DNA from: an uncultured Bacteroidales bacterium
Lineage (GTDB): Bacteria > Bacteroidota > Bacteroidia > Bacteroidales > P3
Reading direction: 5' to 3'
Assembly: GCA_946183915.1 (NCBI GenBank)
Contig: CAMHDJ010000020.1
Span: forward strand, 1 to 46,054
Length of the DNA: 46,054 nt
A program made the translations under genes and the position numbers. The notes beneath the pieces are model-generated. The model was not told where the DNA came from and did not search any database. It saw only the letters and a list, made by a program, of their open reading frames with translations. This document shows, in pieces, positions 11,217 through 45,721 of the stretch; position 1 is the first letter of the stretch; each line of letters starts with the position of its first letter.

Positions 11217-11290
11217 CCTACTTAACTCCTACTAAACTAAGCCTTTAGTAGGAGAAGAGTAGGAGTTGAGTAAGAGATGAGTAGGAGATG
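11217..11290 (-). repeat. 11-bp-period tandem repeat array with inverted units
   Basis: On the plus strand two units (CCTACTTAACT, CCTACTAAACT at 11217-11238) are followed by AAGCCTTT. Four inverted units then lie at 11247-11290: AGTAGGAGAAG, AGTAGGAGTTG, AGTAAGAGATG, AGTAGGAGATG. Every unit is exactly 11 bp. Units of the two halves pair; the best stem is 11226-11236 with 11244-11254 (11 bp). Read on the minus strand the order is four direct units, then a loop, then two inverted units. Confidence 0.85.
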
Positions 11291-11460
11291 GTGGCTAATC
11301 ATCTGGTTTTCAGGGGGCATTTTTGAGGTTATGTTAAATAGACTTTTTCCGGCGGCCCGGTGGGTGAGGGTCGGCGAGGGGGCTGGCCGAGGGGTGCGAA
11401 AGGGTGGTGGCCGAGAGGTGCAATCGGCTCGAGGGGAGGCCTCGCGACGGCCGGGCCGGT

Positions 11461-11480
11461 GGGCGTATGGGCGGGTAGGG
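11461..11480 (+). other. Canonical G-quadruplex motif
   Basis: Four runs of three G (11461-11463, 11469-11471, 11473-11475, 11478-11480) are separated by loops of 5, 1 and 2 nt. This is a textbook intramolecular G-quadruplex pattern on the coding-direction strand, about 100 bp upstream of the -7 element at 11581. A looser four-run pattern lies at 11362-11394. Confidence 0.55.
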
Positions 11481-11580
11481 TGGTGTTGGCGGTTGTGTGC
11501 AAGTTGTTGATTCCATGTGTTGTATGGTGTTCTGTTTATTGTACCGTGCATTTTATTTCTGTAGAATGAAAAAAAATATG

Positions 11581-11588
11581 TAATTTTG
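11581..11588 (+). promoter_or_regulatory. -7 element before the small membrane protein and efp
   Basis: TAATTTTG matches the Bacteroidota -7 consensus 23 bp before the ATG. The spacer is A-rich (GAATGAAAAAAAATATG), and TTTC about 21 bp upstream is a weak -33. It probably drives the small membrane protein gene and efp. Confidence 0.65.
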
Positions 11589-11611
11589 CACTTTCAAAAA
11601 CAACGCGAAAG

Positions 11612-11872
11612 ATGAGTCATAAGACAGCCATTACGATCTATGAGATAGCCTCCTATGTGCTGATTCTCGGTGCCACAGCCATCTATTTCTTCATGAAACA
11701 GCAGGGGCTGTCGCTGACGATGCTGGTGCTGGCGCTGGCTATCTTCTGCCGTTGGATGATGGACCGCCACCGCTACAAGGCGTGCGACGAGGAGAACGAC
11801 GGCCTGCGCAACGACCTCCGCCGCCTGACCCTCCTGCTGGCCGAAGAGAAGAAAAAGAATAACAATAAATAA
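11612..11872 (+). CDS. Small two-TM membrane protein
   Basis: The protein has 86 aa. Two hydrophobic helices lie at about residues 9-27 and 32-48, separated by KQQGLS. A charged, probably coiled-coil tail (CDEENDGLRNDLRRLTLLLAEE) ends in KKKNNNK. No family is recognised. It sits 12 bp before efp under its own promoter, so it is probably co-transcribed with it. The translated length, promoter and short spacing support a real gene. Function is unknown. Confidence 0.75.
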   Translation: MSHKTAITIYEIASYVLILGATAIYFFMKQQGLSLTMLVLALAIFCRWMMDRHRYKACDEENDGLRNDLRRLTLLLAEEKKKNNNK

Positions 11873-11884
11873 ATCAGTAATTTT

Positions 11885-12448
11885 ATGGCAACAACCACCG
11901 ACATCAAGAACGGACTTTGCATCAATTTCAACAACGATATCTACACCATCGTTGAGTTCCTCCACGTGAAACCCGGCAAGGGTGCCGCCTTCGTGCGTAC
12001 CAAGATGCGCAACGTCAAGACCGGCCGCATGCTGGAGAACACCTTCCCCAGCGGCGCCAAGATCGATATCGTCCGCGTCGAGCGTCGTCCCTACACCTAC
12101 CTCTACAAGGAGGGTGACATGCATGTCTTCATGCACACCGAGACCTACGAGCAGATCTACATCCCCGAGACTATCATCAACGCCCCGCAGTTCCTCAAAG
12201 ACGGCCAGTATGTGGAGATCACCGTCGAGGCCGACACCGAGACTCCGCTGATCTGCGAGCTGCCCCCGTTCATCGAGACCGTGGTCACCTACACCGAGCC
12301 CGGTTTTGCCGGCAACACCGCCACCAACGCCATGAAGGACGCCACCGTCGAGCCTGGCGTGCAGGTGCGCGTGCCCCTCTTCATCAAAGAAGGCGAGCGT
12401 ATCAAGGTCGATACCCGCACGGGTGAGTATGCTGAGCGCATCAAATAA
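11885..12448 (+). CDS. efp: Elongation factor P
   Basis: The protein has 187 aa, the usual length for the family. The N-terminal KOW-like domain starts [20 protein letters not shown]. The loop [14 protein letters not shown] carries the conserved Lys32 that enters the ribosomal peptidyl-transferase centre. Two OB-fold domains follow ([17 protein letters not shown] and [20 protein letters not shown], the C-terminal signature). EF-P relieves ribosome stalling at polyproline stretches. It is preceded by the small membrane protein gene and overlaps or nearly abuts the M28 lipoprotein gene that follows. Confidence 0.97.
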
Positions 12449-12470
12449 CTTTGTAAATCAGTTCTGTACA

Positions 12471-13460
12471 TTGAAACGATACGCCCTTGTTGCAGCCTGC
12501 TTGCTCGTGCTGGCAGGCTGCAAGCATAAACAGCAGGTGCCCGCCCCGGCGGCAGGCATCGACTACACGCAGGTGGCTGTGCCCGAATTCTGCGTCGACT
12601 CAGCCTATCGCTACACGGCCGAGCAGTTGGCCTTTGGCAACCGCATCCCCGGCAGCAAGGCATGGGAACAGTGTGCGGCCTACCTTGCGGCCGCCATGGG
12701 CCGCTGGTGCGACACGGTGATGGTGCAGGATTTCCGCACCACGCTGTGGGACAACTCGGTGGTGCCTGGCAAGAACATCATCGCCTCGCTCAACCCGCAG
12801 GCCCCCAAACGCATCCTGCTGGCTGCCCACTGGGACAGTCGTCAATGGGCCGACCACGACAACAACCCCGATATGCACCGCTCGCCGGTGCCCGGTGCCA
12901 ACGACGGCGCCTCCGGGGTAGCCGCCCTCATGGAGATGGCCCGCGTGATGAGCGCCATGCCTCCCTCGGTGGGGGTCGACTTCATCTTCTTCGATGTGGA
13001 GGATCAGGGCGTTCCGGAGTGGAGCGAGACTTACGATGACAAGTCCTGGTGCAAGGGGTCGCAGTTCTGGGCCGAGAACCGTCATGTGCCTTACTACACG
13101 GCCGTCTATGGGGTGCTGTTCGACATGATCGGCACGCCCGAGCCCCGATTCACACAGGAGTACATCAGTCGCCAGTATGCCCCCGGCCTCTGCGACAAGC
13201 TGTGGAACTGCGCTGCCGCGCTCGGCTATGGTCACATCTTCGTCAAGAAGCAGACCGATCCCATCCTCGACGACCATCTCTATGTCAATCAGATGACCGG
13301 CATCCCGATGGTTGATATCGTCCAGAACAGCGTCAACACCAGCTTCTTCAGCCATTGGCACACCACTACTGACGACCTGAATTCGGTCAATCCGGAGGCG
13401 TTGCGCACTGTGGCGCTGGTCACGATGAAGACGCTCTATGGTGACTACCCTGCCAAATGA
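12471..13460 (+). CDS. M28-family zinc peptidase / glutaminyl cyclase-like lipoprotein
   Basis: From TTG at 12471 the product (329 aa) begins with a compact lipoprotein signal, LKRYALVAACLLVLAGC, with Cys17 acylated. An ATG at 12423 is in frame but overlaps efp by 26 bp and adds a polar 16-residue tail, so it is the alternative start. Zinc-site motifs of M28 are AAHWDSR, GANDGASGVA, FDVEDQG, and a C-terminal HWHTTTDD. SWCKGSQFWA also occurs in bacterial glutaminyl-peptide cyclotransferases, which convert N-terminal Gln to pyroglutamate. The enzyme should face the periplasm. Aminopeptidase activity cannot be excluded. The stop overlaps the next gene's ATG (ATGA, 13457-13460). Confidence 0.85.
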   Translation: MKRYALVAACLLVLAGCKHKQQVPAPAAGIDYTQVAVPEFCVDSAYRYTAEQLAFGNRIPGSKAWEQCAAYLAAAMGRWCDTVMVQDFRTTLWDNSVVPGKNIIASLNPQAPKRILLAAHWDSRQWADHDNNPDMHRSPVPGANDGASGVAALMEMARVMSAMPPSVGVDFIFFDVEDQGVPEWSETYDDKSWCKGSQFWAENRHVPYYTAVYGVLFDMIGTPEPRFTQEYISRQYAPGLCDKLWNCAAALGYGHIFVKKQTDPILDDHLYVNQMTGIPMVDIVQNSVNTSFFSHWHTTTDDLNSVNPEALRTVALVTMKTLYGDYPAK

Positions 13461-13897
13461 GAACGAAAGGTTTACATAATGCGAAAAGGCTGAGGCACTG
13501 TTTGTGTCTCAGCCTTTTGCTGATGGTCTGCGGATGTCGTGGCGACCAGTGTCGCACTCCGTTCGGCGAGGGCGGCGACCTCGATCTACTTCAGCCCGAT
13601 TTCATGAATCTCTACAACAATCCAGGCGGCACACTGGTCATTAACCGGGGCTATCGAGGCATTCTGGTGCATTGCTCTGGACTGTCTGAGTATGTGGCGT
13701 TTGACTGTGTCTGCCCCTATTGCCGGGAGGTGGGCATGACGCCGGACAGTCCTACCCACGCGGTGATGCTGACATGTCCGGAGTGTGGCTCGCGGTTCGA
13801 GCTCTTCTTCGGCAACCCGCTGGAGGGGGCTGTCACGTCGTGTATGCTCTATCAGTACAACACGTTCTTCGACGGCCGTATTCTAAGTATATATTAA
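13457..13897 (+). CDS. Rieske-like lipoprotein with four-Cys site
   Basis: The protein has 146 aa. Its signal peptide has a basic n-region (KRLRH) and ends LLLMVCGC, with the likely lipid Cys at residue 27. The fold resembles the Rieske-like small lipoproteins of Bacteroidales: GYRGILVHCSGLSEYVAFDC, then CPYC, then TCPECGSRFELFFG and LYQYNTFFDGRILSIY. The two His ligands of a true 2Fe-2S Rieske centre are absent; CVCPYC and CPEC would suit zinc or another metal. It is translationally coupled to the M28 gene by a 4-bp overlap. A strong hairpin lies inside its 5' coding end. The function is unknown and the family call is tentative. Confidence 0.7.
   Translation: MRTKGLHNAKRLRHCLCLSLLLMVCGCRGDQCRTPFGEGGDLDLLQPDFMNLYNNPGGTLVINRGYRGILVHCSGLSEYVAFDCVCPYCREVGMTPDSPTHAVMLTCPECGSRFELFFGNPLEGAVTSCMLYQYNTFFDGRILSIY
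13484..13518 (+). promoter_or_regulatory. Strong hairpin at the start of the Rieske-like gene
   Basis: A perfect 11-bp stem (13484-13494 with 13508-13518) extends inward by about four more pairs, including one GU, to a 5-nt loop. The arms end in AAAA and TTTT, so it looks like an intrinsic terminator, yet it lies inside codons 10-21 of the gene. It may attenuate expression relative to the upstream M28 gene. Confidence 0.5.
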
Positions 13898-14401
13898 TCA
13901 GTTCTTCTTCCAGAGCACATACAGCAGGTAGAAGAGCAGTCCCAGCAACCCGAGCATGAGCAGTCGGGGCGAGAGGAGTGTCAGTAGGAGCATCGCCGCC
14001 ACGATCATGGTGACGTTGGCTGCCACTCGCTTGTCCGATGGGAGCGACTGGTAGCGTAGCTTGGTCTGCTGCCACCATTGTTGTATTCCGCTCACTTTCC
14101 GCCCTTGGTTGTCGACGGTCTCGGCGTGGGTTGTCGGAATGTCTGTCACGCGTACTTTGATGGTCTTGGAACCGTGCTTTCCGTCCTTCCAAGCGGTGAT
14201 TGTCAGGGAGGTGCGTCCTTTCGACCGATGCAGCCGGAATCGCTTGCTGCCGCTGATTTCGAGGGGCAGTACGGTGGCCTTGTAGCCGTTGTCGATCTTC
14301 AACTCTACGCGTTCGGCGCCGCTGCAGTCCCATCGCACCTCGACGATGTCACCTTCGGTGACGGTGGTGCGGTCTACGTTGAATGTCATACGTTTTTCCA
14401 T
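13898..14401 (-). CDS. Ig-like-domain protein with C-terminal membrane hairpin
   Basis: The protein has 167 aa. Residues 5 to about 90 form a beta sandwich pattern, TFNVDRTTVTEGDIVEVRWD ... TSLTITAWKDGKHGSKTIKVRV, as in Ig-like or PKD-type domains. A linker with IQQWWQQTKLRYQSL follows. Two hydrophobic helices (about 128-142 and 145-163) close the protein before WKKN. There is no signal peptide, so the beta domain probably stays in the cytoplasm unless it is exported by an unusual route. It is convergent with the Rieske-like gene: the two stop codons abut at 13897/13898 with no terminator between. It follows pgi on the same strand after 45 bp. The family is not recognised. Confidence 0.65.
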   Translation of the reverse strand: MEKRMTFNVDRTTVTEGDIVEVRWDCSGAERVELKIDNGYKATVLPLEISGSKRFRLHRSKGRTSLTITAWKDGKHGSKTIKVRVTDIPTTHAETVDNQGRKVSGIQQWWQQTKLRYQSLPSDKRVAANVTMIVAAMLLLTLLSPRLLMLGLLGLLFYLLYVLWKKN

Positions 14402-14431
14402 ATCCTCGTTGTCATCAAATTCTGTGCCACG

Positions 14432-14468
14432 CCTAGGTGGCCGGGCTTAGAAGCCCGGCTTGCCTAGG
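14432..14468 (-). other. Long imperfect hairpin spanning the pgi stop codon
   Basis: CCTAGG (14432-14437) and CCGGGCTT (14441-14448) pair with AAGCCCGG (14451-14458) and CCTAGG (14463-14468), leaving a 3-4 nt internal bulge and a 2-nt tip. The pgi stop codon (14447-14449) lies at the tip. No T-run follows on the minus strand, so it is not a classical terminator; it may stabilise the 3' end. Confidence 0.5.
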
Positions 14469-15754
14469 AGGTGGAACATGTTGCGCTTGTAGGCCTCTAC
14501 ACCCGGTTGGTCGAAGGGGTTGACACCGAGGGTATAGCCACTCACGCCGCAGGCGAACTCGAAAAAGTATATGAGCTGGCCAATGGTGTACTCATCTATC
14601 TTGTCTACAGATAGTTCCACTACTGGTACTCCTCCGTCGACGTGTGCTTGGATGGTTCCTTCGGCTGCGCAGTCGTTAATCTCGGTTAAGCTCTTGCAAG
14701 TAAGATAGTTGATACCGTCAAGATTCTTCTCGTCAGTGGGCACAGCCACGGTGGTGTTGGGGCGACGTACGCGGAGCATGGTCTCCATCATCAGTCTTTC
14801 TCCGTCCTGCACGTATTGTCCCATGGAGTGAAGGTCGGTCGTAATGCTCAGGCTATGAGGAAGAAGTCCTTTGTGACTCTTGCCCTCACTCTCGCCGTAA
14901 AGTTGTTTCCACCACTCGGCCAGGTAGCGAAGATTGGGTTGGCAGCTGACAAGCATTTCCACCTTGGTGCCCTTGCGGTAAAGTGCATTCCGAACGGCTG
15001 CGTACATCAAGGCAGGATTCTCTTCCAATGTGTTGTTTCCATGGCATATAGAGCGCATGTCGCGAGCTCCTTGAAGCAGACGGTCGATGTTGTATCCGGC
15101 CATGGCAATGGGGAAAAGTCCGACGGGTGTCAGCACCGAGAAGCGGCCACCTACGTTGTCAGGGATGACATATGCGGGGTAGCCCTCCTGCTGTGCGATG
15201 TCGTGCAGTGCTCCACGCCGGGCATCAGTGATGGCCACAATACGTTCAGATGCAGCTTTTTTCCCATACTTCTTCTCCAGATGTGCTTTGACGATACGGA
15301 AAGCTACTGCCGGTTCGGTGGTGGTACCGCTCTTGGAGATGACGCAGACGCTGTAATCCTCTCGGTCTAAGAGCTCGAGCAGCTGATTGTAATAGTCCTC
15401 TCCCAGCGTGTGACCAGCATAAACGATGTAGGGTTGATTATCGCGAACCATGGATGCAAACTCGGATTGGAGGGCCTCAATGACCATCCGGGCTCCAAGA
15501 TAGGAACCTCCGATTCCGATGACGACCAGCAGACGACTTTTCTCTGCGAGCCGTGCAACATCGGCTTTGAGTCGCGCCAGTTCTTGCTTGTCAATCTCCT
15601 CAGGCAGATTTACCCAACCGAGGAAGTCGTTTCCTGCCGCATCGCCTTCGAGAAGGTGCCGTTTGGCTTCCAAAACCTCTGGCAGTAATGCCTCTATGTC
15701 CCTTTCCGATACACGGTTAAAAGCGTGTTTGATGTTTACTTTTATGGTCTCCAT
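14447..15754 (-). CDS. pgi: Glucose-6-phosphate isomerase
   Basis: The protein has 435 aa from METIKVNIKHAFNRV; ten more codons are in frame upstream but have no family character. It interconverts glucose-6-phosphate and fructose-6-phosphate in the cytoplasm. Visible signatures are GIGGSYLGARMVIEAL, the phosphate loop ISKSGTTTEPA, VGGRFSVLTPVGLFPIAMAG, and the C-terminal helix with FDQPGVEAYKRNMF. The length fits the short Gram-positive/Bacteroidota type of the family. The gene stands alone on the minus strand, upstream of the Ig-like membrane gene. A strong -7 element is not evident; CAAAAATG (plus strand, near 15793) is a one-mismatch candidate. Confidence 0.96.
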   Translation of the reverse strand: METIKVNIKHAFNRVSERDIEALLPEVLEAKRHLLEGDAAGNDFLGWVNLPEEIDKQELARLKADVARLAEKSRLLVVIGIGGSYLGARMVIEALQSEFASMVRDNQPYIVYAGHTLGEDYYNQLLELLDREDYSVCVISKSGTTTEPAVAFRIVKAHLEKKYGKKAASERIVAITDARRGALHDIAQQEGYPAYVIPDNVGGRFSVLTPVGLFPIAMAGYNIDRLLQGARDMRSICHGNNTLEENPALMYAAVRNALYRKGTKVEMLVSCQPNLRYLAEWWKQLYGESEGKSHKGLLPHSLSITTDLHSMGQYVQDGERLMMETMLRVRRPNTTVAVPTDEKNLDGINYLTCKSLTEINDCAAEGTIQAHVDGGVPVVELSVDKIDEYTIGQLIYFFEFACGVSGYTLGVNPFDQPGVEAYKRNMFHLLGKPGF

Positions 15755-15875
15755 TTTGATATGTTTTGTTGATAAATTGTTCATTTTTATGGCTCAAAAA
15801 TGGGCGTTTCGGTATTTTTTTTAATCTGTAACTTCAACATTTTCGCTTGATTAACGAAAAAACAAAAAAAATATT

Positions 15876-15906
15876 TTTCGTATTCAAAAAAATATATGTA
15901 ATTTTG
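15876..15906 (+). promoter_or_regulatory. Promoter of the OmpA-family gene
   Basis: TAATTTTG (15899-15906) is a perfect -7 element with TTTC (15876-15879) about 19 bp upstream. The spacer contains GTATTCAAAAAAATATATG, almost the same as the spacer in front of the T9SS adhesin at 40291-40306. The start codon follows after 59 bp. Confidence 0.75.
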
Positions 15907-15965
15907 CACATCATAAAAGCGAGAAATAATATAGAAGTATTAATAATTTTAAAATCATTAATGAT

Positions 15966-17252
15966 ATGCTGAAAAAACTAATCAAGATGGGCGTTGTGAT
16001 GTCGCTTTTAGTGACTTCTGTTAGCGCCTTTGCACAGAATTCCGGCAAGATCGAGTATCCTCGATACAGCTTCGGAAGCAACTGGTCGCTGGGCGTTGCC
16101 CTCGACTTTGACTGGGAGGCCCAGCAACATGGTGCTAGCCACCCTGATGGCATGTGGAGAAGATCTACCAATGTCGGTTTCGACATTTTCGGTATGAAGA
16201 AGTTCCACCACGCCTTTGATCTCCGTATCCGCGCTCACGTCCCCACGCTGTGGAGAGGTCTGCAGGATCAGCCCGTTGATGGCCAGAGCTTTTACATGGC
16301 TCGCTACTCCACCCTTACTGGTGAGTTGATGTGGTCCATCAGCAACGCTATCCACGGTTACGATCCCGATCGTCGCTGGAGCGCCCCCTACCTCTTCGTG
16401 GGTGCGGGTGCCGCCTTTGTTAACTGCCTCATCGATGACGAGCAGTTTGAGGGTACGCACTATGCCGAGAATCTGGGTCACGTCATGCCCGTGCTGACTG
16501 CTGGTATTGGTGCTAGCTACAGCTTCACCGAGAAGAGCACCTGCTTTGTTGAGTTGGAGATCAATGGCAATGACATCCCCAACCTCTTCGAGCAGAGCTT
16601 AAGTGACCTTGCTATGGTCCATGCTGATGCACGCTTGGGTTACATGTACAACTTCGGTCTGACCGAGGCTGACAAGGCCGTTGCTTCGCAGAAGAGCATG
16701 CTCACGCAGGACAACTTCGGCGCTCTCAACAGCCAGGTGGCCGCCCTCGAGCAGCAGGTTGCTAACAACCGCAACGAGGAGAAGAAACTGCAGAATCGTA
16801 TCGCCGAGCTCGAGAAGCAGCTCGCCGACGCTCTTGCCAACAAGGGCAACAAGGTCAACAGCGCCGCTGCCGACAGCCTGCAGAACGTCATCAACCAGAT
16901 CAAGGCCGACCAGCTCAACTACTACGCTCTGCCCTTCTCGGTGCAGTACGGTGTTGACGAGTGGCAGGTCAGCGACGAGGAGATGGACAAAGTCAAAGCC
17001 GTCGCTCGCGTGATGAAAGACAACTCCAACGTGAAGATCAAAGTGGTTGGTTTTGCTGATCACACTGGCAGTGCTGCCTACAACATGAAGCTCTCCGAGC
17101 GTCGTGCCAACGAGGTCAAGCGCCTCCTCTCCAAGAAGTATGGTATTGCTGAGGACCGCATCGAAGTCGACTTCAAGGGTAAAGATGCTCCCTTCGGCGA
17201 TGCCCAGTACGCTCTCAACCGCCGCGTCAGCTTCTATCGCGTGATTGAATAG
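15966..17252 (+). CDS. OmpA-family outer-membrane protein with coiled coil
   Basis: The protein has 428 aa. The signal peptide MLKKLIKMGVVMSLLVTSVSAFAQ is followed by an eight-strand-type beta-barrel (about residues 30-235, with WSAPYLFVGAGAAF, GIGASYSFTEKST and LGYMYNFG). A coiled coil (about 250-300, QVAALEQQVANNRNEEKKLQ) leads to a C-terminal OmpA peptidoglycan-binding domain (about 320-428). This domain shows VVGFADHTGSAAYNMKLSERRA and the DxxxxxLNRRVSFYR end. It ties the outer membrane to peptidoglycan. Strong promoter and codon use suggest high expression. It is convergent with another OmpA-domain gene across a shared terminator. Confidence 0.93.
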   Translation: MLKKLIKMGVVMSLLVTSVSAFAQNSGKIEYPRYSFGSNWSLGVALDFDWEAQQHGASHPDGMWRRSTNVGFDIFGMKKFHHAFDLRIRAHVPTLWRGLQDQPVDGQSFYMARYSTLTGELMWSISNAIHGYDPDRRWSAPYLFVGAGAAFVNCLIDDEQFEGTHYAENLGHVMPVLTAGIGASYSFTEKSTCFVELEINGNDIPNLFEQSLSDLAMVHADARLGYMYNFGLTEADKAVASQKSMLTQDNFGALNSQVAALEQQVANNRNEEKKLQNRIAELEKQLADALANKGNKVNSAAADSLQNVINQIKADQLNYYALPFSVQYGVDEWQVSDEEMDKVKAVARVMKDNSNVKIKVVGFADHTGSAAYNMKLSERRANEVKRLLSKKYGIAEDRIEVDFKGKDAPFGDAQYALNRRVSFYRVIE

Positions 17253-17274
17253 TCATACGATACACACCAACAAC

Positions 17275-17310
17275 AAGAGGGCCTCTCGTATGAGAGGCCC
17301 TCTTCTTTTT
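17275..17310 (+). terminator. Bidirectional intrinsic terminator
   Basis: A perfect 13-bp stem (17275-17287 with 17292-17304) with a GTAT loop is followed by CTTTTT. It lies between two convergent OmpA-family genes and can serve both, though the T-run favours the plus-strand gene. Confidence 0.9.
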
Positions 17311-17328
17311 ATATATAATGTAAGATGA

Positions 17329-19595: not shown

Positions 19596-19596
19596 G

Positions 19597-20278: not shown

Positions 20279-20358
20279 GGGTATCCCCCAGGCATCAACC
20301 AGGCATCCCCCAGGCATCAACTAGGCATCATCTCTGCATGTGAGCAGGGGGGATGCAT
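20279..20358 (+). repeat. 11-bp-period array, AGGCATC family, copy 1
   Basis: Five units of exactly 11 bp run from 20279 to 20333: GGGTATCCCCC, AGGCATCAACC, AGGCATCCCCC, AGGCATCAACT, AGGCATCATCT. An inverted partner GGGGGATGC follows at 20348-20356, and further GATG words are spaced 11 bp apart after it. It lies in the 473-bp divergent gap between purN and acpP. The rest of that gap has a G-run cluster (20429-20457) and the acpP promoter, and no gene. Confidence 0.85.
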
Positions 20359-20584
20359 GTTTGATGTGATGTGCAAGGTGTTGATATACTTACTATTGTG
20401 GATGTTTTGGGGCGGTTGGCGCTGTGTTGGGATGGGGGGTGAGGGGCTCAAAACGGGAAAAACGGGGTTGCGATGGGGCCAAAAACGGGCCGAAAAGGAC
20501 ATGTTTCGTTAAAAAAATATAAAATTTATACCGTTTTATATCAGAAGGTTACCCTTTGGGGTGGTGGCCGGAAATGTTAAAAAG

Positions 20585-22219: not shown

Positions 22220-22225
22220 ACGACC

Positions 22226-24837: not shown

Positions 24838-24862
24838 TAGATCGTGCACGATCTATTTTTTT
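24838..24862. repeat. 18-bp palindrome with T-run, copy 1
   Basis: TAGATCGTGCACGATCTA (24838-24855) is a perfect 18-bp palindrome followed by seven T. It can fold as a 7-bp stem with a TGCA loop plus U-run, like a small terminator, or serve as a dimeric protein-binding site. Identical copies lie at 25119 and 39970. Confidence 0.8.
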
Positions 24863-25010: not shown

Positions 25011-25074
25011 ATGTCCGGGGTAAGTCCGGGGTAAGTCCGAGGCAAGTCCGGGTCAAGTCCGACTGCGGTCGGAC
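25011..25074 (+). repeat. 11-bp-period array, AAGTCCG units
   Basis: Five 11-bp units run from 25011 to 25065: ATGTCCGGGGT, AAGTCCGGGGT, AAGTCCGAGGC, AAGTCCGGGTC, AAGTCCGACTG. The inverted partner GTCGGAC follows at once (25068-25074) and makes a perfect 7-bp hairpin with GTCCGAC (25057-25063), loop TGCG. The 477-bp gap 24779-25255 otherwise holds the pgm terminator, two copies of the 18-bp palindrome that flank this array, and GC-rich filler; I see no gene in it. Confidence 0.85.
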
Positions 25075-25118: not shown

Positions 25119-25142
25119 TAGATCGTGCACGATCTATTTTTT
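25119..25142. repeat. 18-bp palindrome with T-run, copy 2
   Basis: This is a perfect copy of TAGATCGTGCACGATCTA (25119-25136) followed by six T, 281 bp downstream of copy 1 and in the same orientation by its T-run. The match with copy 1 continues into a pyrimidine-rich flank (CCCCTCC after the T-run). Confidence 0.8.
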
Positions 25143-27325: not shown

Positions 27326-27370
27326 GTTATCTACTGGTTGACATGAGGTTGACTACTGGTTGCGTAGTAG
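27326..27370 (+). repeat. 11-bp-period array, GTTGACTACTG units
   Basis: Four 11-bp units run from 27326 to 27369: GTTATCTACTG, GTTGACATGAG, GTTGACTACTG, GTTGCGTAGTA. The last unit carries AGTAG (27366-27370), inverted relative to CTACT (27353-27357), so the end can fold back. It lies 27 bp after the GH3 stop in the 276-bp gap before recA. Confidence 0.75.
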
Positions 27371-32021: not shown

Positions 32022-32059
32022 TCTTTTAACATTATTTATGAATTCCGCACACAATACGC

Positions 32060-32079
32060 CCTGAAAAGGCTGTTTCAGG
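32060..32079. other. Hairpin after mazG
   Basis: CCTGAAA (32060-32066) pairs perfectly with TTTCAGG (32073-32079) around AGGCTG. There is no T-run, so it is a weak terminator candidate only. A second perfect 7-bp hairpin (AAGATGC 32089-32095 with GCATCTT 32105-32111) follows and belongs to the adjacent repeat array. Confidence 0.45.
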
Positions 32080-32088
32080 CTATCATAC

Positions 32089-32171
32089 AAGATGCTCATT
32101 CTCTGCATCTTCCTTGCTTGTATGCATAGATGATGCCTGGGGGATGCTTGGAGGATGCCTGGGGGATGCTT
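32089..32171 (-). repeat. 11-bp-period array, AGGCATC family, copy 2 (reverse orientation)
   Basis: On the plus strand four 11-bp units run from 32128 to 32171: AGATGATGCCT, GGGGGATGCTT, GGAGGATGCCT, GGGGGATGCTT. These are reverse complements of the AGGCATCnnCC unit. Read on the minus strand they are followed by TGCATA and then an inverted GATGC, as in the copy at 20279. The element lies between mazG and ribBA and points away from ribBA. Confidence 0.85.
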
Positions 32172-32241
32172 TCAGGAGGCTGGTTTCTAGGCTCTTTGGC
32201 CGCTGCGGTGGCGGAGGGGTGCGCTATTCTGTTTTTTTTCG

Positions 32242-38421: not shown

Positions 38422-39714
38422 CTATCGGGTGAAGAAGCCCGTCCACGTGACGCCCAGGGCGCAGTAGGGCTCGTTGTTGTACTGCTCGGCCAGCAGGCGC
38501 ACGCCGGCTTCGGCCTTGACGGTCACCTCCGGCAGCGGGCAGTAGTTGAGGCCGGCGCTGACCACCTGCCGCTCGCACCAGCCCACGTCGGTCTGGTGCT
38601 CCGAGGGCACGAAGCTGTCGTAGTGGTCGTAGCGTCCGAAGAGGTAGAGCCTCTGCGAGGTGCGGCTCCAAGCCAGCAGGTTCAGGCCCGCCTCGACCGA
38701 GGCGTCCCAGGCCGCCTGCGCCACGGTGGTGTGGGGGTAGGGGTTGCCGCTCATGGTGGTCTGGTTCTTGTTGTGGGCCGAGATGGCGCTGGCGTCGCCC
38801 AGGAAGCCGTAGTCGGCGTTGCCGCGCACGGTCACCACGCGGTTGCGGTACTCGAAGTCGAAGGCCCCGATGAGCACCGTGCCCCGCACGTCGGCAAAAC
38901 GCGACGAGTCGCCGTAGATGCTGGTCGTGATGTCGTTGTTGAACGAGTTGCCGGCATATCCGCTCAGGCTCAGCCTGAGGCCCGGCAGCCCCGTCCAGTC
39001 CACGCGCAAGGCCGTGGCCAGGCGGTTGGCCGGCCGAAATTCGTAGGGCGAGGCGCTCCCGTTGTGGATCCAGCCCTGGTCGTTGAAGAGGTAGGCGTTG
39101 AGGCCGGGGATGACCTGCGCCTCGTAGCGCCAGTGGCCCACGCGGCCCCACAGCGCGAGGCCCGTCTCGTGCCACGTGCACGGCATGATCGTGTTCTCCC
39201 CCTCGGGCCGGTAGACGCCGAAGAAGCGGTTGGGCGTGTGGTTGTTGTTGATCATGCCGACGGGCACCACGATGTGGCCCGCGCGGATGTTGAAGGCGCG
39301 CGAAAAGCTCTTCTGCACCCAGAACTGCTCCAGCGCCACCTCGCCGCCGCGCTCCACCTCCTGCTCGAACTCGCCCGTCTCCTCCATCTCCTTCTCCACG
39401 GCGGCCTCGACGCCCCCGTGCTCGAACTCGATTTCGGTGCCCATCGTCCATCCGTGGCCGAAGTCGTAGCCCAGCATGATCACAGCGTGCGGCAGGTCCA
39501 CGCGGCCGTAGCTCGGCGCGTCGGCGTAGCGCGACGGGAAGGAGTAGCGGAACACATTGTCCGAATAGAAGTGGCGGCTGTAGACAGCCTCGCCGTAGCC
39601 GCCCACCGTCAGGCGGCTTTTCGTCGCCGCGCTGTCGCTCTGGGCCGAAACGGTACCCGCCGCCAGCGTGGCCAGCAGCAGGTAGAGTGTTGATAATTTT
39701 ACAGTTATTCGCAT
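38422..39714 (-). CDS. Outer-membrane porin-like beta-barrel
   Basis: The protein has 430 aa. The signal peptide MRITVKLSTLYLLLATLAAG ends near SAQ. The mature protein is rich in alternating aromatic/polar strands, starting RLTVGGYGEAVYSRHFYSDN and including LPHAVIMLGYDFGHGWTMGTEIEFEHGG, GHIVVPVGMINNNHTPNRFFG and the end CALGVTWTGFF. The pattern is that of porins of the phosphate/OprO-like group in Bacteroidota. An unusual acidic insert (EAAVEKEMEETGEFEQEVER, about 105-125) interrupts a strand and may be a metal-binding loop. It is first in an operon with imelysin, di-heme cytochrome and ccsBA. Confidence 0.85.
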   Translation of the reverse strand: MRITVKLSTLYLLLATLAAGTVSAQSDSAATKSRLTVGGYGEAVYSRHFYSDNVFRYSFPSRYADAPSYGRVDLPHAVIMLGYDFGHGWTMGTEIEFEHGGVEAAVEKEMEETGEFEQEVERGGEVALEQFWVQKSFSRAFNIRAGHIVVPVGMINNNHTPNRFFGVYRPEGENTIMPCTWHETGLALWGRVGHWRYEAQVIPGLNAYLFNDQGWIHNGSASPYEFRPANRLATALRVDWTGLPGLRLSLSGYAGNSFNNDITTSIYGDSSRFADVRGTVLIGAFDFEYRNRVVTVRGNADYGFLGDASAISAHNKNQTTMSGNPYPHTTVAQAAWDASVEAGLNLLAWSRTSQRLYLFGRYDHYDSFVPSEHQTDVGWCERQVVSAGLNYCPLPEVTVKAEAGVRLLAEQYNNEPYCALGVTWTGFFTR

Positions 39715-39737
39715 AGTTGATCAAGTTTTCGAGTCTG

Positions 39738-39769
39738 CAAAAATACAATCGCGCTCCCTACTGGACAAT
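39738..39769 (-). promoter_or_regulatory. Promoter of the porin-imelysin-cytochrome operon
   Basis: On the minus strand TATTTTTG (39738-39745) is a perfect -7 element. ATTG (39766-39769), 20 bp upstream, matches three of four -33 bases. The leader to the porin ATG is about 20 nt. Confidence 0.65.
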
Positions 39770-39808
39770 AACCAAAAGTGGTGATTTGATCATTCAAAAC
39801 CCTTGCTC

Positions 39809-39869
39809 CGCCCTGACTTCTCCCTGATGGCTCCCTGATGACTCCCTGATGACTCTCTTAAAACCAGGG
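39809..39869 (+). repeat. 11-bp-period array, CTCCCTGATGA units
   Basis: A degenerate unit CGCCCTGACTT (39809-39819) is followed by CTCCCTGATGG, CTCCCTGATGA and CTCCCTGATGA (39820-39852) and a decayed unit starting CTCTCTT. An inverted CCAGGG (39864-39869) follows. Each step is exactly 11 bp. Confidence 0.8.
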
Positions 39870-39969
39870 TGAAATCCTTGCCCTGTCAGCGTTTTGCGAG
39901 TTTTCCAGCATGGTTGACACACTTCCGGAAGGCTAGATGGCTCGTTTAGAATGGTTTAAATGTGCAAAA

Positions 39970-40013
39970 TAGATCGTGCACGATCTAATTTTTTAACCTA
40001 AATTAATTTAAAT
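39970..40013. repeat. 18-bp palindrome with T-run, copy 3
   Basis: TAGATCGTGCACGATCTA (39970-39987) is identical to the copies at 24838 and 25119. It is followed by ATTTTTT and an AT-rich tail (CTAAATTAATTTAAATT) that recurs with changes after the half copy at 40129. Confidence 0.8.
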
Positions 40014-40025
40014 TGGCTGTTTTGG

Positions 40026-40124
40026 GCTGCGTTTTCGGATCGCAGCATCGGCGCGTTGCGCCGACGGCACCGCGGAGGGTGCCGTTCTCCGCTTCGCTAT
40101 CGGAAGCCTCCGCTGGAGGCTTCC
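40026..40124. other. Four consecutive perfect hairpins
   Basis: The stems are 40026-40031/40041-40046 (6 bp, 9-nt loop), 40048-40054/40058-40064 (7 bp, 3-nt loop), 40065-40071/40078-40084 (7 bp, 6-nt loop) and 40102-40111/40115-40124 (10 bp, GCT loop). They lie between two copies of the palindrome element. This looks like a folded RNA or a small non-autonomous element rather than random GC-rich DNA. Confidence 0.55.
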
Positions 40125-40128
40125 TTCA

Positions 40129-40175
40129 CGTGCACGATCTAATTTTTTGACTTAAATTAACTTAAATCACGGGGT
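40129..40175. repeat. Half copy of the 18-bp palindrome with T-run
   Basis: CGTGCACGATCTA (40129-40141) matches the right 13 bp of the palindrome, then the same ATTTTTT. An AT-rich tail (CTTAAATTAACTTAAAT) follows that is a diverged duplicate of the flank of copy 3. The missing left arm suggests truncation or replacement by the hairpin cluster. Confidence 0.7.
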
Positions 40176-40284
40176 TTTGGTCAGAGAACAGTGGATCGGA
40201 AGGGGTGTCGGCAGCTCTCCCGATGTACCTCCGGTATAAATTTGAACCACCCGCGGGAATTTTTTTAACAAGTTGCATTATCTT

Positions 40285-40314
40285 TTTGTGTATTCAAAAA
40301 AATGTGTACTTTTG
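40285..40314 (+). promoter_or_regulatory. Promoter of the T9SS adhesin gene
   Basis: TTTG (40285-40288), an 18-bp spacer and TACTTTTG (40307-40314) fit the Bacteroidota consensus. The spacer TGTATTCAAAAAAATGTG is nearly the same as that of the OmpA promoter at 15876. The leader is about 78 nt, longer than at other genes here. Confidence 0.75.
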
Positions 40315-40398
40315 CAAATCCTATCGGCCCTGTCCGGTGGGGTGTATTTGTTTGATAACTAACAGAAAAGAACATAAATATTAACAAAAAAACAGTTT

Positions 40399-43300
40399 AT
40401 GAGACAAAAATTTTTACAAATTTTGGCCCTTTTGGCGCTCGTGGTGGTGCCATGGACGGGCCAGGCGCAGAGTGGTTGCACCATTCGGGTTGCCGGTGAG
40501 GATTCCTACGGCGACGGATGGAACGGCGGCTCGCTGGACATCATCCAGGGTACCGATACCCTGGCTAACTTCGCCCTTACGGGTAGTAGCGGCGAACTCA
40601 ATGTGGTGCTGCCCACCGACGATCCCGTCAGCTTTGTCTGGAACTCGGGTAGCTATGACTATGAGGCCACCGTCTATATCTACGACGGCGGCAACACGCT
40701 GGCCCACAGTGTGAACACCCCGACGGCGGGTACCATCTACACCATGAGCAGCCCCTGCCCCTCGTGTCTGCCTGCGACGCAACTGACCGCCAGCGATGTG
40801 GCCACCGACGGCTTCACCCTCTCGTGGACGGGTTCGACCACGGCCACGTCCTATGCCATCTACCTGGACGGCAGTCTGGTGACGGACGGTGTTACCTCTA
40901 CCTCCTACACCTTCAGTGGATTGAACGCCAATACGTTGTATAATGTTGGCGTGCAGGCCGTCTGCTCGGCCGACGACAGTGCCAACATCGTCTCGCGCGA
41001 AGTGCGCACCTCGTGCGGCCTCACCGTGCTGCCCTACAGTACCGGCTTCGAGGATGCCGCCTTCAATGGTGCCTGGTACCCCTGCTGGGACAGCACCATC
41101 CATGCCGGCACCGATCCCAGTGTGAACAACAACACCGTCCACACGGGTACCTACTCGATGTACCTGCAGGCCACCAGCAGCGAGAGCTACAACCTGGTGG
41201 TCGGCCCCGAGATGGACGCCACGGGCGACAACATCTATGTGCGCTTCTGGGCCAACCTGAGCGGCGGCTGGCTGAAAGCCGGTGTCATTACCAATGCCAA
41301 CGACACCAGCACCTTCATCCCTCTGGTCACCATCGAGAACGTCAGCGGTTGGAACGAGTATGAGTTCAACACCGCTGCCCTCGACCCGACGGCCGAGTAC
41401 CGCGTGGCCTGGCTGGGCTACCGCTCGGTGTACTACAGCCAGCGCATCGCCAGCATCGACGACATCTACATCAGCGAGATTCCCTCGTGCCTGCGCGTGA
41501 CCGAGGTGGTCTTCGACACGGCCACCTCCAGCGATATTACCATCCACTGGCCCAGCGTGGGCAGCTCGGCCTACACGGTCTACTACACGGCTGCCGGTTC
41601 GACCGACACGCTCACCTATACCATCAGCGACACGACGGCCACACTGACCGGCTTGGATGCCCTGACGCAGTACTATGTGTATGTGGTTGCCAACTGCGCC
41701 GATGGCGACGGCGAGCCTTCGCCGACCTACAGCTTCGCCACCGCATGCGATGCCTCCACGTGCTTCCTGACGGCATACGTCACTGATTCGTACGACGACA
41801 GTTGGAACGGCTGCGCCATCAATGTGGTGCAGGCCGGTGTCACGGTGGCCGTCATCGAGTGCCCCGACGATAGCAGCGGCTCGACCTTCAGCTACGAGGT
41901 CTGCTCGTCGGCCCCGGCCCAGCTCACCTTCACCCGTGGCAGCTACCCCGACGAGATGGGCGGCACGATCAAGGACGGCAGTGGCGCCACGGTGTTCACC
42001 ATCGAGAACATGGGTAGCCATTATACGGGCGATGTCCTGGCCACCCTGGCCATTCCCTGCCCCTCGTGCAGCGTGCCCACCAACGTCACCGTCGACTCGA
42101 TTGCCGACGCCACGCAGGTCACCATCCGTTGGGAGGCCGGCGACGCCAGTGCCTGGGTGGTCACAATGGGTGACAACACCTACAGCACCAGCGACACCTT
42201 CTACACCTTCTACGGCCTCGAGCCGCTGACCGCCTACACCGTCGGTGTGGCCACCGACTGCGGCGGCGACCTGTCGAACTCTGTCAATGTGAGCTTCGTC
42301 ACGCCTTGTGGCGGCACCACCTGCGAGTCGGTCGTGGAGATGACCGACAGCTACGGCGACGGTTGGAACGGCAACGCCATCGAGGCCTACCAGAGCGGCG
42401 TCCTCGTGGGCACCGCCACCATCGCGTCAGGCGCTTCTGCCAGCGCCTCCATCCCCGTCTGCTCCGGCGTTCCGGTGGAGTATCGCCTGCATGTGGGCAG
42501 CTATCCCAGCGAGATTGGCTTCACCATCTACGACGGCGGTGGCGCCGAGGTCTACACGGCCGCCCAGGGCTCCATGGGGAGCGCTACGGACGGTATGGTG
42601 CTTGACTCGGTGGCTGACCCCTGCCCCACCTGCATCACTCCGAGCGGTGTGACGGTCACCACGGTCGACTCGTCCATGATCACCTTCACCTGGCCCACCG
42701 AAGCGGGCTACACCTACCTCACTTCGTTCAACGGTGGCGCTTACAGCGTCAACAACACCGGCGCCCAGACCCAGTACAACCTGGAGGCCAACACGGTCTA
42801 CACCTTCAGCGTGAAGGTCGTCTGCTCGGAGGGTGACACCTCGAATGCCCGCACCATCAGCCAGCGTACCGCCTGTACCCAGATGATCATCCCCTACGTG
42901 CAGGACTTCGAGGCTGACAGCACCGACGAGATTCCCTCCTGCTGGAATGTGGTCAGCGGCAACGCTACCGTCAGCGGCAACACCTACTACGCCCACGGCG
43001 GCACCAGGTCGCTCCGCATGGCTGGCGGCGACATGATTGCCAGCAGCGCCATCCCCCTGCAGGGTGACTCCATCTATGTCAGCTTCTGGTCCTCGATCGA
43101 CTACTCCGGTACCATCGAGGCCGGCGTGATGACCAACCCGCTTTACGACAGCACCTTCGTCTCGATGGTCTCGGTTCCGGCCGGCAACGGCTACGAGTTC
43201 TTCGAGTTCAACACCTCGACCCTCAGCGCTGACAGCACCTACTACCTGGCCTTCCGTTTCAATGGCAGCTACAGCGGTGCTAGCATCGATGACATCACCA

Positions 43301-45555
43301 TCGACCGTTTCTCGGGTTGCATGACCCCCTCGTCGCTGACGGCCACGCCCGACAGCGCCACCTCCGAGGTGGTGCTCGACTGGGTCAACAACGGCACCAG
43401 CAGTGAGTTCGTCATCGAGTACCGCGAAGTGGGCGGCGACTGGAGCGCCCCGATCTACGCTCCCGGCGTCACCAGCTACTCGCTGACCAGCCTCAGCTAC
43501 GCCACCAACTACGAGATCCGCGTCGGTCTCGTGTGCGGCACCGACACCCTCTGGACCATGACCTCCGTCATGACCGCCTGCCAGGCCTACGCCTTGCCCT
43601 ACTTCGAGAACTTCTACAGCGCCGACGGCACGCTGCCTCCCTGCTGGGATGTCAGCAACGCCTCGGTCATCAAGTACGACAACTGGCCCAACGCCAACGG
43701 CAACGGCGCCCTGCAGGGCGGCCACTACTCGGCCGGCGAATACGCCCTGGTGCCTCGCCTGTCGATGCCTATCGCCAAGCTTGAGATGTCGTTCGACGCC
43801 AAGGTGGGCAACATCGAGGAGGGCGACGGCATGATGATCGGTGTCTATAGCTCCCTGACCGGCACGGTTGAGTGGACCGACACGCTGCAGGTCCCTGGAC
43901 AGTGCCGCGAGAACTACGTCCGCTTCACCTGCAACTTCCTCAGCTACACCGGCACCGGCGACCGCATCGCCATCAGCCACTCGCACAACAACCCCTCCGA
44001 CTGGGGCTTCTACGTCGACAGCCTGATCATCGTCGCCCTGCCCGAGTGCAACCCGCCAGAGAACCTGACGGCCCACAACACGATGTATCCCAGCACGGCC
44101 GACGACATCTACTTCACCTGGACCGTCAACAATGAGGGCACGATCCCGTCCAGCTACCAGCTCTACATCGACACCATCACCTCGACCGTTGCCGTCGACA
44201 GCGTGCCCGACAGCCTGCTGATCAGCGTCGACACCAACTACTACATGCCGCCGATCAACACCCTGGCCGAAGGCGCCCACTACCGCCTCTTCGTGCGCAG
44301 CTCGTGCGGTACCAGCCTGCACAGCAACTGGGTCGAGCTGCAGAACGGCTTTGCCACCGACGAGTACTGGATGAACAACACCGGCGTGGCCGACACCATC
44401 GTGGGTTGCGACTTCATCATCTACGACAACGGCGGTCCCGTGGCGGGCTACCTCCACAACAGCAACTCCGCCCTCGTCATCCAAGCCGGCGAGCCTGGCC
44501 GCGAGCTGCAGATCCAAGGCGCCTTCATCAACACTGGCGACGACCAGTCGACCTTCACCGTCTACGACGGCATCGGCGTCAACGACAGCGCGGTGCTCTA
44601 CACCCGCTCGCTCAGCATGGCCCACGACCAGTTCGACTACCTCGACAGCGTCCTGGCCACCTCCACCAACGGGGCCCTGACCATCACCTTCACCTCCGGC
44701 TACAGCGCCGCCCTCGGCTACGAGCTCTACGTCCACTGTGTGGGCGACGCCAGCTGCGAGAAGCCCTCCAACCTGCAGGTCGAGATGGTCGGCGAGGGCC
44801 AGGCCTACGCCACTTGGGACTCCACCGGCGCCAGCCTCTACCGCGTCTACCACCACGCCAATGGCGACAGCGTCTGGAACATGCAGCCCACCACGACCAA
44901 CAGCATCACCCTCAGCGGCCTGCCCGCCGACGTGACCTACGACTTCTACGTCGTGGCCTACTGCAGCGCCACCGACACCTCGGCGCCCAGCATCATCCGC
45001 CACTTCAGCACCCACTACGACGCCCCCGTCTGCGACACGGTCACCAACCTCACCGTCAGCAACATCGGCCAGACCAGCGCCACCCTCGAGTGGACCTCCG
45101 ACGGCACCCTCTGGGAGGTGGAGTTCAACGGCACCGTCATCAGCACGCCCGACAACCCCTGCACCCTCAGCGGTCTCACCGCCGGCACCGACTACAGCGT
45201 GCGCGTGCGTAACGTCTGCGACGCCTCCGCCGACTTCTACTCCGAGTGGAGCGCCGCCGTCAGCTTCCGCACCGACACCATCCCGGTCGAGCCGCAGGGC
45301 ATCGACGACGTGAACGGCACGGCCGCCGTGGCCCTCTACCCGAACCCCGCCAGCACCACCGTCACCATCGCCGTCCGCGGCATCAGTGGCACCGCCACCG
45401 TCACCCTCGTCGACCTCAACGGCCGCACCTGCGGCAGCTGGAAGGCCGAAGACGGACAGCTCGTGGTCGACCTCGGCGGCATGGCTCGCGGCGCCTACTT
45501 CGTCCGCGTCACCGGCGAGAACACCAGCGTCGTCCGCAAACTCGTCCTCCGCTAG
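40399..45555 (+). CDS. Giant T9SS-secreted adhesin with Fn3, jelly-roll and CUB-like modules
   Basis: The protein has 1718 aa. The signal peptide is MRQKFLQILALLALVVVPWTGQAQ. Modules with approximate residues are: three copies of a beta domain headed DSYGDGWNG or DSYDDSWNG (25-115, 455-550, 640-735); fibronectin type III domains (120-200, 360-450, 555-635, 740-825, 974-1060, 1217-1320, 1454-1535, 1544-1630); three cleaved-adhesin/MAM-like jelly rolls beginning LPYSTGFED, IPYVQDFEAD and LPYFENFYS (210-360, 828-970, 1065-1213); and a CUB-like domain (1334-1447). The C-terminal 75 residues (ALYPNPASTTVTI ... VTGENTSVVRKLVLR) are a type A sorting domain for type IX secretion. It is probably a surface adhesin or matrix-binding protein. 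It is monocistronic with its own promoter. Confidence 0.93.
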   Translation: MRQKFLQILALLALVVVPWTGQAQSGCTIRVAGEDSYGDGWNGGSLDIIQGTDTLANFALTGSSGELNVVLPTDDPVSFVWNSGSYDYEATVYIYDGGNTLAHSVNTPTAGTIYTMSSPCPSCLPATQLTASDVATDGFTLSWTGSTTATSYAIYLDGSLVTDGVTSTSYTFSGLNANTLYNVGVQAVCSADDSANIVSREVRTSCGLTVLPYSTGFEDAAFNGAWYPCWDSTIHAGTDPSVNNNTVHTGTYSMYLQATSSESYNLVVGPEMDATGDNIYVRFWANLSGGWLKAGVITNANDTSTFIPLVTIENVSGWNEYEFNTAALDPTAEYRVAWLGYRSVYYSQRIASIDDIYISEIPSCLRVTEVVFDTATSSDITIHWPSVGSSAYTVYYTAAGSTDTLTYTISDTTATLTGLDALTQYYVYVVANCADGDGEPSPTYSFATACDASTCFLTAYVTDSYDDSWNGCAINVVQAGVTVAVIECPDDSSGSTFSYEVCSSAPAQLTFTRGSYPDEMGGTIKDGSGATVFTIENMGSHYTGDVLATLAIPCPSCSVPTNVTVDSIADATQVTIRWEAGDASAWVVTMGDNTYSTSDTFYTFYGLEPLTAYTVGVATDCGGDLSNSVNVSFVTPCGGTTCESVVEMTDSYGDGWNGNAIEAYQSGVLVGTATIASGASASASIPVCSGVPVEYRLHVGSYPSEIGFTIYDGGGAEVYTAAQGSMGSATDGMVLDSVADPCPTCITPSGVTVTTVDSSMITFTWPTEAGYTYLTSFNGGAYSVNNTGAQTQYNLEANTVYTFSVKVVCSEGDTSNARTISQRTACTQMIIPYVQDFEADSTDEIPSCWNVVSGNATVSGNTYYAHGGTRSLRMAGGDMIASSAIPLQGDSIYVSFWSSIDYSGTIEAGVMTNPLYDSTFVSMVSVPAGNGYEFFEFNTSTLSADSTYYLAFRFNGSYSGASIDDITIDRFSGCMTPSSLTATPDSATSEVVLDWVNNGTSSEFVIEYREVGGDWSAPIYAPGVTSYSLTSLSYATNYEIRVGLVCGTDTLWTMTSVMTACQAYALPYFENFYSADGTLPPCWDVSNASVIKYDNWPNANGNGALQGGHYSAGEYALVPRLSMPIAKLEMSFDAKVGNIEEGDGMMIGVYSSLTGTVEWTDTLQVPGQCRENYVRFTCNFLSYTGTGDRIAISHSHNNPSDWGFYVDSLIIVALPECNPPENLTAHNTMYPSTADDIYFTWTVNNEGTIPSSYQLYIDTITSTVAVDSVPDSLLISVDTNYYMPPINTLAEGAHYRLFVRSSCGTSLHSNWVELQNGFATDEYWMNNTGVADTIVGCDFIIYDNGGPVAGYLHNSNSALVIQAGEPGRELQIQGAFINTGDDQSTFTVYDGIGVNDSAVLYTRSLSMAHDQFDYLDSVLATSTNGALTITFTSGYSAALGYELYVHCVGDASCEKPSNLQVEMVGEGQAYATWDSTGASLYRVYHHANGDSVWNMQPTTTNSITLSGLPADVTYDFYVVAYCSATDTSAPSIIRHFSTHYDAPVCDTVTNLTVSNIGQTSATLEWTSDGTLWEVEFNGTVISTPDNPCTLSGLTAGTDYSVRVRNVCDASADFYSEWSAAVSFRTDTIPVEPQGIDDVNGTAAVALYPNPASTTVTIAVRGISGTATVTLVDLNGRTCGSWKAEDGQLVVDLGGMARGAYFVRVTGENTSVVRKLVLR

Positions 45556-45654
45556 CGCGCGGCCCTCGGGCCCATCCGCCTACATCCAGGGCGTACACGC
45601 ACACCGTGTACGCCCTTTTCTTTGCCCCGCCCCTCCGGCCCCCCGCCCTCCGCC

Positions 45655-45721
45655 AGGCATCCCCCAGGCATCATCCAGGCATCCCCCAGGCATCAACTAG
45701 GCATATATCCATACGGGATGC
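45655..45721 (+). repeat. 11-bp-period array, AGGCATC family, copy 3
   Basis: Five 11-bp units run from 45655 to 45709: AGGCATCCCCC, AGGCATCATCC, AGGCATCCCCC, AGGCATCAACT, AGGCATATATC. The inverted GGGATGC follows at 45715-45721. Unit order matches copy 1 at 20279 closely, including the AACT unit near the end. The 448-bp gap 45556-46003 holds this array, some shared flank words with copy 1 (CGATGGGGC then A-run; TAAAAAAATAT) and the tRNA promoter, and no gene. Confidence 0.85.

Follow-up and report, generated by a model that had tools for sequence, protein, structure and literature searches.

BrickBuilt, a repeat of Porphyromonas gingivalis, is the nearest published kind that could be found for the elements described here, tandem arrays of 11-bp units in the intergenic gaps of a 46,054-nt stretch of DNA (hereafter the window) from an uncultured Bacteroidales genome labelled G000; REPINs and heptamer repeats come next. 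BrickBuilt resembles these arrays in being an intergenic tandem repeat of the Bacteroidales, set in a small species-limited element with inverted ends and predicted long stem-loops (PMC4596501). It differs in that its unit is 23 nt long, has a single sequence and is present in 19 copies, and in that its leader and tail have terminal inverted repeats like those of insertion sequences (PMC4596501), whereas the present arrays have an 11-bp unit, many unrelated sequences and a genus-wide range. REPINs and repetitive extragenic palindromic (REP) sequences, with their REP-associated tyrosine transposases (RAYTs), are likewise small, intergenic and hairpin-forming, with high copy numbers and species-specific populations, but REPs are tagged palindromes of 20-40 bp tied to RAYTs (PMC3116915), the palindrome of a REPIN ending in a GTAG or CGTC tag (PMC3733652), and not multi-unit 11-bp arrays. 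Similarly, heptamer repeats, among the simple sequence repeats with units of 5-11 nt, form intergenic tandem arrays of a fixed odd unit length in a patchy set of taxa; their unit is 7 nt, with one or few sequences, and mirrored arms fall outside their definition (PMC4679880). The operators of CarH, with the consensus nnnnTnnACAn, lie at promoters and, as described there and unlike the arrays here, do not form genome-wide diverse families (PMC9304148).

The original prediction, made from the letters of the window alone, held that no described class fits such arrays, which was too strong in view of the BrickBuilt, REPIN and heptamer relatives in kind; full membership in a BrickBuilt-like, REPIN, heptamer or CarH class is not established. 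In the literature consulted, no account of such period-11 palindromes from this group was recognised, which is weak evidence of absence, subscription papers being mostly uncovered. Cyanobacterial short tandemly repeated repetitive (STRR) sequences are similar short tandem repeats. Pneumococcal BOX elements are also modular and intergenic, vary in how many tandem middle units they contain and have the potential to form stem-loops, but their units are about 45-60 bp long and conserved in sequence. We lean, with modest confidence, towards reading the arrays as a genus-wide class of palindromic, modular intergenic 11-bp minisatellites, akin to non-autonomous hairpin repeats of the REPIN type or of miniature inverted-repeat transposable elements (MITEs). 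This reading draws on dispersed species-specific families, on unrelated units in the same gap across species, on the mirrored arms that some two fifths of the arrays possess and on one-unit steps in two cases.

A tandem-repeat finder (TRF) recovered period-11 arrays at all seven window sites named earlier, and by the calls of a custom codon-score gene caller all seven are intergenic (Table 1). Six are strong, while the seventh, upstream of recA, has a lag score beneath all the cuts applied and is too weak to count. Period 11 was compared with other periods in 446 kb of the 2.22-Mb G000 genome, comprising the window and 20 stretches of 20 kb on other contigs, with an array defined, unless stated otherwise, by a single cut at a lag score of at least 16. 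Gaps that reached the end of a stretch were excluded, which leaves the window gap 45556-46054 outside the 172 gaps of at least 60 bp that were scored; for counts of congeners and of gaps of at least 250 bp, gaps with at least 5 Ns were dropped too. Lag 11 reached the cut in 51 of the 172 gaps, against 11 for lag 7, 7 for lag 14, 4 for lag 21 and at most 3 for the rest, apart from the multiples 22 (36 gaps) and 33 (12 gaps), and five dinucleotide shuffles per gap gave no scoring gap at any lag. The arrays are thus real and above chance, with period 11 commoner than other periods and than shuffled sequence.

Gap length matters: arrays were present in none of the 70 G000 gaps below 150 bp, in 3 of 24 between 150 and 250 bp and in 48 of 78 of at least 250 bp. 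For the window it had been claimed that exactly one array sits in each gap from about 250 bp upwards and that gaps up to about 215 bp hold none. On the first part, five of six such gaps in the window have a strong array and the sixth a weak one alone, 30 of the 78 long gaps in the genome sample lack one, and the rule is not general; the second part fails on the array at 32122-32181, whose gap measures 186 bp. Genes present a different picture, as period 11 was found in none of 343 G000 open reading frames (ORFs) of at least 300 bp (374 kb) and in none of 206 ORFs (222 kb) of the congener G012, where periods 6, 7, 9 and others occur. A coding explanation was rejected on these pooled figures for the two species (0 of 549 ORFs, 596 kb). 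Period-7 repeats score in 15 of the 206 G012 ORFs and in 14 of the 110 gaps of that species, a second favoured period there and, unlike period 11, one tolerated in genes.

Many unrelated 11-mer units occur within the single genome G000, and some of them belong to large dispersed families. The original statement that the arrays share a period and not a sequence stands across the genus, but within the window the arrays at 20283 and 45649 and, on the reverse strand, at 32132 share the unit CCAGGCATCNN (GGCATC) and constitute family F1. Across the whole G000 genome the F1 pattern AGGCATCNNCYAGGCATC, with at most one mismatch, has 431 matches (251 + 180), compared with 0-4 in each of 119 congeners; a two-unit pattern with at most two mismatches matches 237 + 166 times, and its reversed control 0 times. 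The reversed control of AGGCATCNNCYAGGCATC has 62 matches in G035 and 63 in G090, by luck; G035 carries a CTACGGCCCCC array. By eye, 22 of 25 rows of F1 arrays terminate at GCAT, a short partial inversion often follows, and inverted ends of the F1 copies amount to a partial inverted unit at most. Family F2, about 200 bp long, is likewise dispersed and has an array as its 5' part. It has 17 copies in the 446 kb, most sharing about 200 bp, and five other full places in G000, among the matches listed, are 94-97% identical; at E 1e-6 it was absent from 118 congeners and thus confined to G000 among 119 genomes. As such, F1 and F2 are small non-coding elements with many dispersed intergenic copies, as MITEs are. 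Furthermore, 7 of 20 stretches taken from contig starts (L032, L034, L041, L043, L045, L046 and L048) have a period-11 array or an F2 copy less than 450 bp from that start, as expected if such repeats break assembly.

RAYT-driven REPs were rejected as a general cause of the arrays on account of array-bearing species without Y1_Tnp: PF01797 (Y1_Tnp) had no match in G009, G014, G041 and G069, whose draft assemblies are 95-97% complete, and two in G000. One period-11 array, L217:1008-1101 (G000:C21), lies about 0.9 kb from a Y1_Tnp (RAYT-like) gene at 2012-2464, which may be chance as arrays are common.

In total, 120 species genomes of this genus of uncultured Bacteroidales were compared, including G000, and 36 congeners were sampled for arrays in stretches of 18-60 kb per species (260 kb for G012) on contigs chosen non-randomly. 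Period 11 was present in 29 of the 36, in 85 gaps, while period 7 scored in 40 gaps and the rest in at most 20, except the multiple 22 (47). Among 208 scoring gaps from 37 species, the best lag in the range 5-17 was 11 in 132. A RecA search returned 14 records at 81% identity or more, mostly labelled as ruminant-gut metagenome-assembled genomes (MAGs). At the 14 recA loci assigned to the genus, period 11 occurred in 8 of 93 gaps, and near recA in other Bacteroidota in 2 of 501 (62 of 66 loci, 1.14 Mb, with four loci of at most 9 kb left out); six genomes of other families in the order, sampled in small stretches, yielded a single intergenic case. The earlier suggestion that something makes or maintains 11-mers locally therefore gains support on the genus scale, since most congeners have arrays, their units are others and the same gap can hold unrelated 11-mers.

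The alignment of orthologous gaps, proposed with the original prediction, gives an indication of how arrays change. G059 and G096 are 92% identical, and both of their alignable arrays differ in length by exactly one 11-bp unit between conserved flanks. In the gap upstream of gene 11612 (placed by tblastn, Ns ignored, with G076 and G034, which have less than 200 bp upstream, counted as misses), 13 of 30 species score at least 16 and 14 at least 14, with about eight unit families by eye; unit families are shared by the pairs G000/G012, G059/G096 and G113/G119, and the 11217 array has its G012 ortholog at L103:6921-6994. The purN-acpP gap, which holds the 20283 array, scores at least 16 in 8 of 30 species (G000, G035, G010, G061, G069, G009, G041 and G002); the scorers other than G000 hold other 11-mers (in G010 beside unread bases) and G012 is not among them. 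The ortholog of the 25013 array in G010 (L109:3333-3427) has, by eye, a different linker in every unit. These comparisons indicate that arrays persist over short distances and change by whole units, perhaps also in concert, and that over longer distances other arrays take their place. The purN-acpP gap of G059 and G096 (L105:2054-2179 against L216) also shows an indel of about 100 bp without a period-11 array. In G010 (L075 and L108), a run of Ns within a GGATATGCTTA array advises caution on assembled copy numbers.

Changes by single units could also result from pure replication slippage in relaxed gaps, with 11 nt preferred via a polymerase or primase footprint and no mobility involved; for heptamers, an argument from a 7-nt polymerase footprint has been published (PMC4679880, citing Mrazek 2007). 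Slippage would suit the exact one-unit differences between G059 and G096, the absence of arrays from ORFs, where 11 shifts the frame, and the unrelated units within one genome, and the arrays do share with simple tandem repeats one unit length above chance and changes by whole units (two of two arrays). We nevertheless consider slippage as the sole process unlikely, as it leaves unexplained the F1 counts (431 in G000, 4 or fewer in each congener), the F2 element of about 200 bp and the mirrored inverted arms. A mobile or slippage-generated element, among the options first listed, is the one that fits best, given the dispersed species-specific families and the one-unit differences.

The orientation of the neighbouring genes bears on functional explanations. 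In gaps of at least 200 bp, arrays occupy 19 of 46 tandem, 27 of 35 divergent and 4 of 8 convergent gaps in G000, and 33 of 154, 30 of 125 and 11 of 48, respectively, in the congeners, where orientation makes little difference. A protein reading tandem 11-bp repeats and controlling the adjoining genes would have a precedent in CarH, whose tetramers bind to 11-bp direct repeats arranged in tandem, three or four at a time (PMC9304148), and would be in keeping with the position of arrays in longer gaps and with the preference for divergent gaps in G000. However, the congeners show no bias to promoter-bearing gaps, the identical gap in other species has other units or none, and many unrelated units occur per genome. 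The CarH motif TnnACA, expected in each 11-bp repeat, occurs in at least two adjacent units in 7 of 136 arrays and in at least three in 2, few although more than the 0 of one shuffle. Regulatory operator arrays are thus quite unlikely, and a site for a single shared regulator was rejected on the many unrelated units and the rarity of the CarH consensus. A helically phased array for one protein, as first envisaged, also fits poorly for the former reason and would suffer from phase drift in B-DNA. B-form phasing fails to account for 11, since an array of 10 units would end up roughly half a turn out of phase.

By the lag measure, the median array comprises 6 units. Taken with their flanks, 53 of 136 arrays from 37 species reach an inverted-repeat score of at least 15, a level attained by no dinucleotide shuffle and by 4 column-permuted controls; the inverted partner unit, earlier reported to recur, is therefore common and not universal. 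A perfect hairpin in G012 (L113:17353-17461) has 54-bp arms, a 1-nt loop and a single-stranded DNA (ssDNA) fold of -64 kcal/mol (z -18.9), and a G066 hairpin has a fold z value of -22. Unit variants are mirrored between the arms, for example in G012, G041, G057 and G066, with a mean arm identity of 0.84 in register compared with 0.70 one unit shifted (in-register higher in 38 of 42), and G012 holds differing 11-bp modules inside one outer frame. In the window, 11217-11290 folds as an ssDNA hairpin with z -4.5.

Hairpins of this kind could be transcribed, acting as terminators, mRNA stabilisers or small RNAs, with 11 bp giving one A-form turn per unit. An exact 11 suits the A-form better than the B-form, and hairpins of high stability whose unit variants are mirrored (G012, G041 and G066), along with the mirrored variants in G057, would be compatible with such a role. 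On the other hand, hairpin-templated copying of DNA predicts mirrored change too, most window arrays fold weakly (DNA parameters only), and Rfam at its gathering score returned nothing in the window but a truncated tRNA. Arrays are carried by divergent and convergent gaps as well as tandem ones, which leaves the folded RNA of the original prediction unsupported, and transcribed hairpins appear distinctly improbable.

Loss of the palindrome nuclease SbcCD, with the arrays as a passive outcome, is highly improbable and was already weakened by the counts that follow. In SbcD-less species, 60 of 182 gaps of at least 250 bp have an array (22 species, G000 excluded), against 10 of 95 in 14 species with SbcD, although this expectation was put on record only after the first SbcD counts. 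SbcD is absent in G000, and SbcC in the 22 SbcD-less species is found at E 8e-8 or weaker, or not at all; no genome of the genus reaches the SbcC family cut-off. SbcD exceeds its cut-off in 56 of 119 genus genomes and is missing from 18 of 19 members of the G000 clade in a fabF tree of 41 species (G003 and G068, sampled for arrays, are outside the tree). However, the SbcD-less array-rich species form that one clade (18 of 19 rows), SbcD-less species outside it (G014, G043, G053 and G070) have arrays in only 2 of 26 gaps, and G057, G065 and G066 have SbcD together with near-perfect palindromes. G037, a clade member outside the array sampling, has SbcD. SbcCD loss was accordingly rejected as the cause, and with one clade and these exceptions the association of SbcD with arrays is best read as shared ancestry.

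Several observations weigh against palindromic minisatellites of a mobile kind. Among 1434 pairs of unit consensuses from different species, 73 lie within a distance of 3, where about 36 are expected, and 16 within 2 (3.8 expected), a modest excess, and units near GGTAGGAGTTG appear by eye in several species; most units are about as unlike across species as shuffled ones, so that common descent of all families is no more than a possibility. F1 copies share little flank except a C-rich leader. No target-site duplication was seen by eye in the G012 and G041 copies, no precise empty site came to light in the comparisons between species, and no transposase was found, no search with the array ends against insertion sequences having been made. 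Strong inverted arms are lacking in 83 of the 136 arrays, and the arm identity given above is biased upward as the centre was picked as best. Among the strong window arrays, all but the one at 11217, the only clear fold, have z values between -2.3 and +0.9 (DNA parameters only). Moreover, a neutral element need not favour divergent gaps as in G000, unit turnover was compared for two arrays only, and arrays may be mis-assembled in short-read MAGs.

Under the minisatellite reading, the basic architecture would be direct units, a short loop and often inverted units. An ancestral 11-bp palindromic element may have existed in the genus, and its copies would have re-inserted, in species-specific bursts, into gaps long enough to accept them. 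Strand slippage and hairpin-templated copying could then alter the arrays, the nascent strand switching template among units and arms and whole units being added, dropped or overwritten. Unit length would be passed on unchanged as substitutions spread from unit to unit, such that the sequence diverges and the period stays 11. Alternatively, an undescribed clade-specific enzyme system for copying, priming or hairpin resolution, working in 11-nt steps, could write, mirror and homogenise modules regardless of their sequence, in which case the period would reflect the machine and not common descent; we regard this as rather unlikely. Eleven bp make one A-form turn, and this would suit an RNA or hybrid step.

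Table 1. Period-11 arrays and associated features in the window, with the spans returned by the tandem-repeat finder.
Feature	Position	Strand	TRF span	Remarks
Period-11 palindromic array	11217..11290	.	11217-11238, 11247-11290	2 inverted units (11217-11238), loop, 4 direct units (11247-11290, AGTAGGAGATG)
CTGGTTTTCAG, CTG-N5-CAG instance	11303..11313	+		motif enriched adjoining arrays
F1 array (CCAGGCATCNN)	20280..20339	+	20283-20330	between purN (-) and acpP (+)
Partial inverted unit GGGGGGATGCATG	20347..20359	+		3' of the 20280 array; fold z -2.3
Period-11 array, unit AAGTCCGGGGT	25013..25061	+	25013-25061	3' of phosphoglucomutase gene
Inverted partner GTCGGAC	25068..25074	+		read from the sequence
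Weak period-11 stretch GGTTGACTACT, uncounted	27331..27362	+	27331-27362	upstream of recA; 61% matches, lag-11 score 9
F1 array (GATGCCTGGGG = CCCCAGGCATC)	32122..32181	-	32132-32177	within 186-bp gap 32022-32207; lag score 23
F2-family array CTCCCTGATGA	39800..39858	+	39811-39855	5' part of F2 element
F2 dispersed element	39811..40012	+		array + conserved 3' part
F1 array (CCAGGCATCCC / CCAGGCATCAA)	45649..45704	+	45649-45704	lag score 34

The flanks of the arrays offer a lead in the motif CTG-N5-CAG, with 19 occurrences in 21.4 kb of flanks compared with 2.3 expected by shuffling and 24 in 148 kb of array-free gaps; it stands beside a minority of arrays only and was selected by eye from the identical data. 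A motif search of array flanks gave solely G/C-run and related gapped words as its top 25. A palindrome, AGATCGTGCACGATCT, recurs in the window at 24839-24854, 25120-25135, 39971-39986 and 40129-40148 (partial at 40129), with a T run after each, and is also present 3' of some other F2 copies. It resembles a terminator or a dispersed repeat in its own right. The tRNA gene at 46004-46054 is cut off by the window end.

To summarize, families of repeats are usually defined by their sequence, whereas what these numerous unrelated families have in common throughout a genus is a geometry, in which modules of 11 bp form a short array that often has a mirrored arm, and searches based on sequence may miss such classes. 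If confirmed by long reads, the arrays would provide a natural test of how tandem repeats and palindromes arise and persist in bacteria, and a possible route to a new mobilising or copying enzyme.

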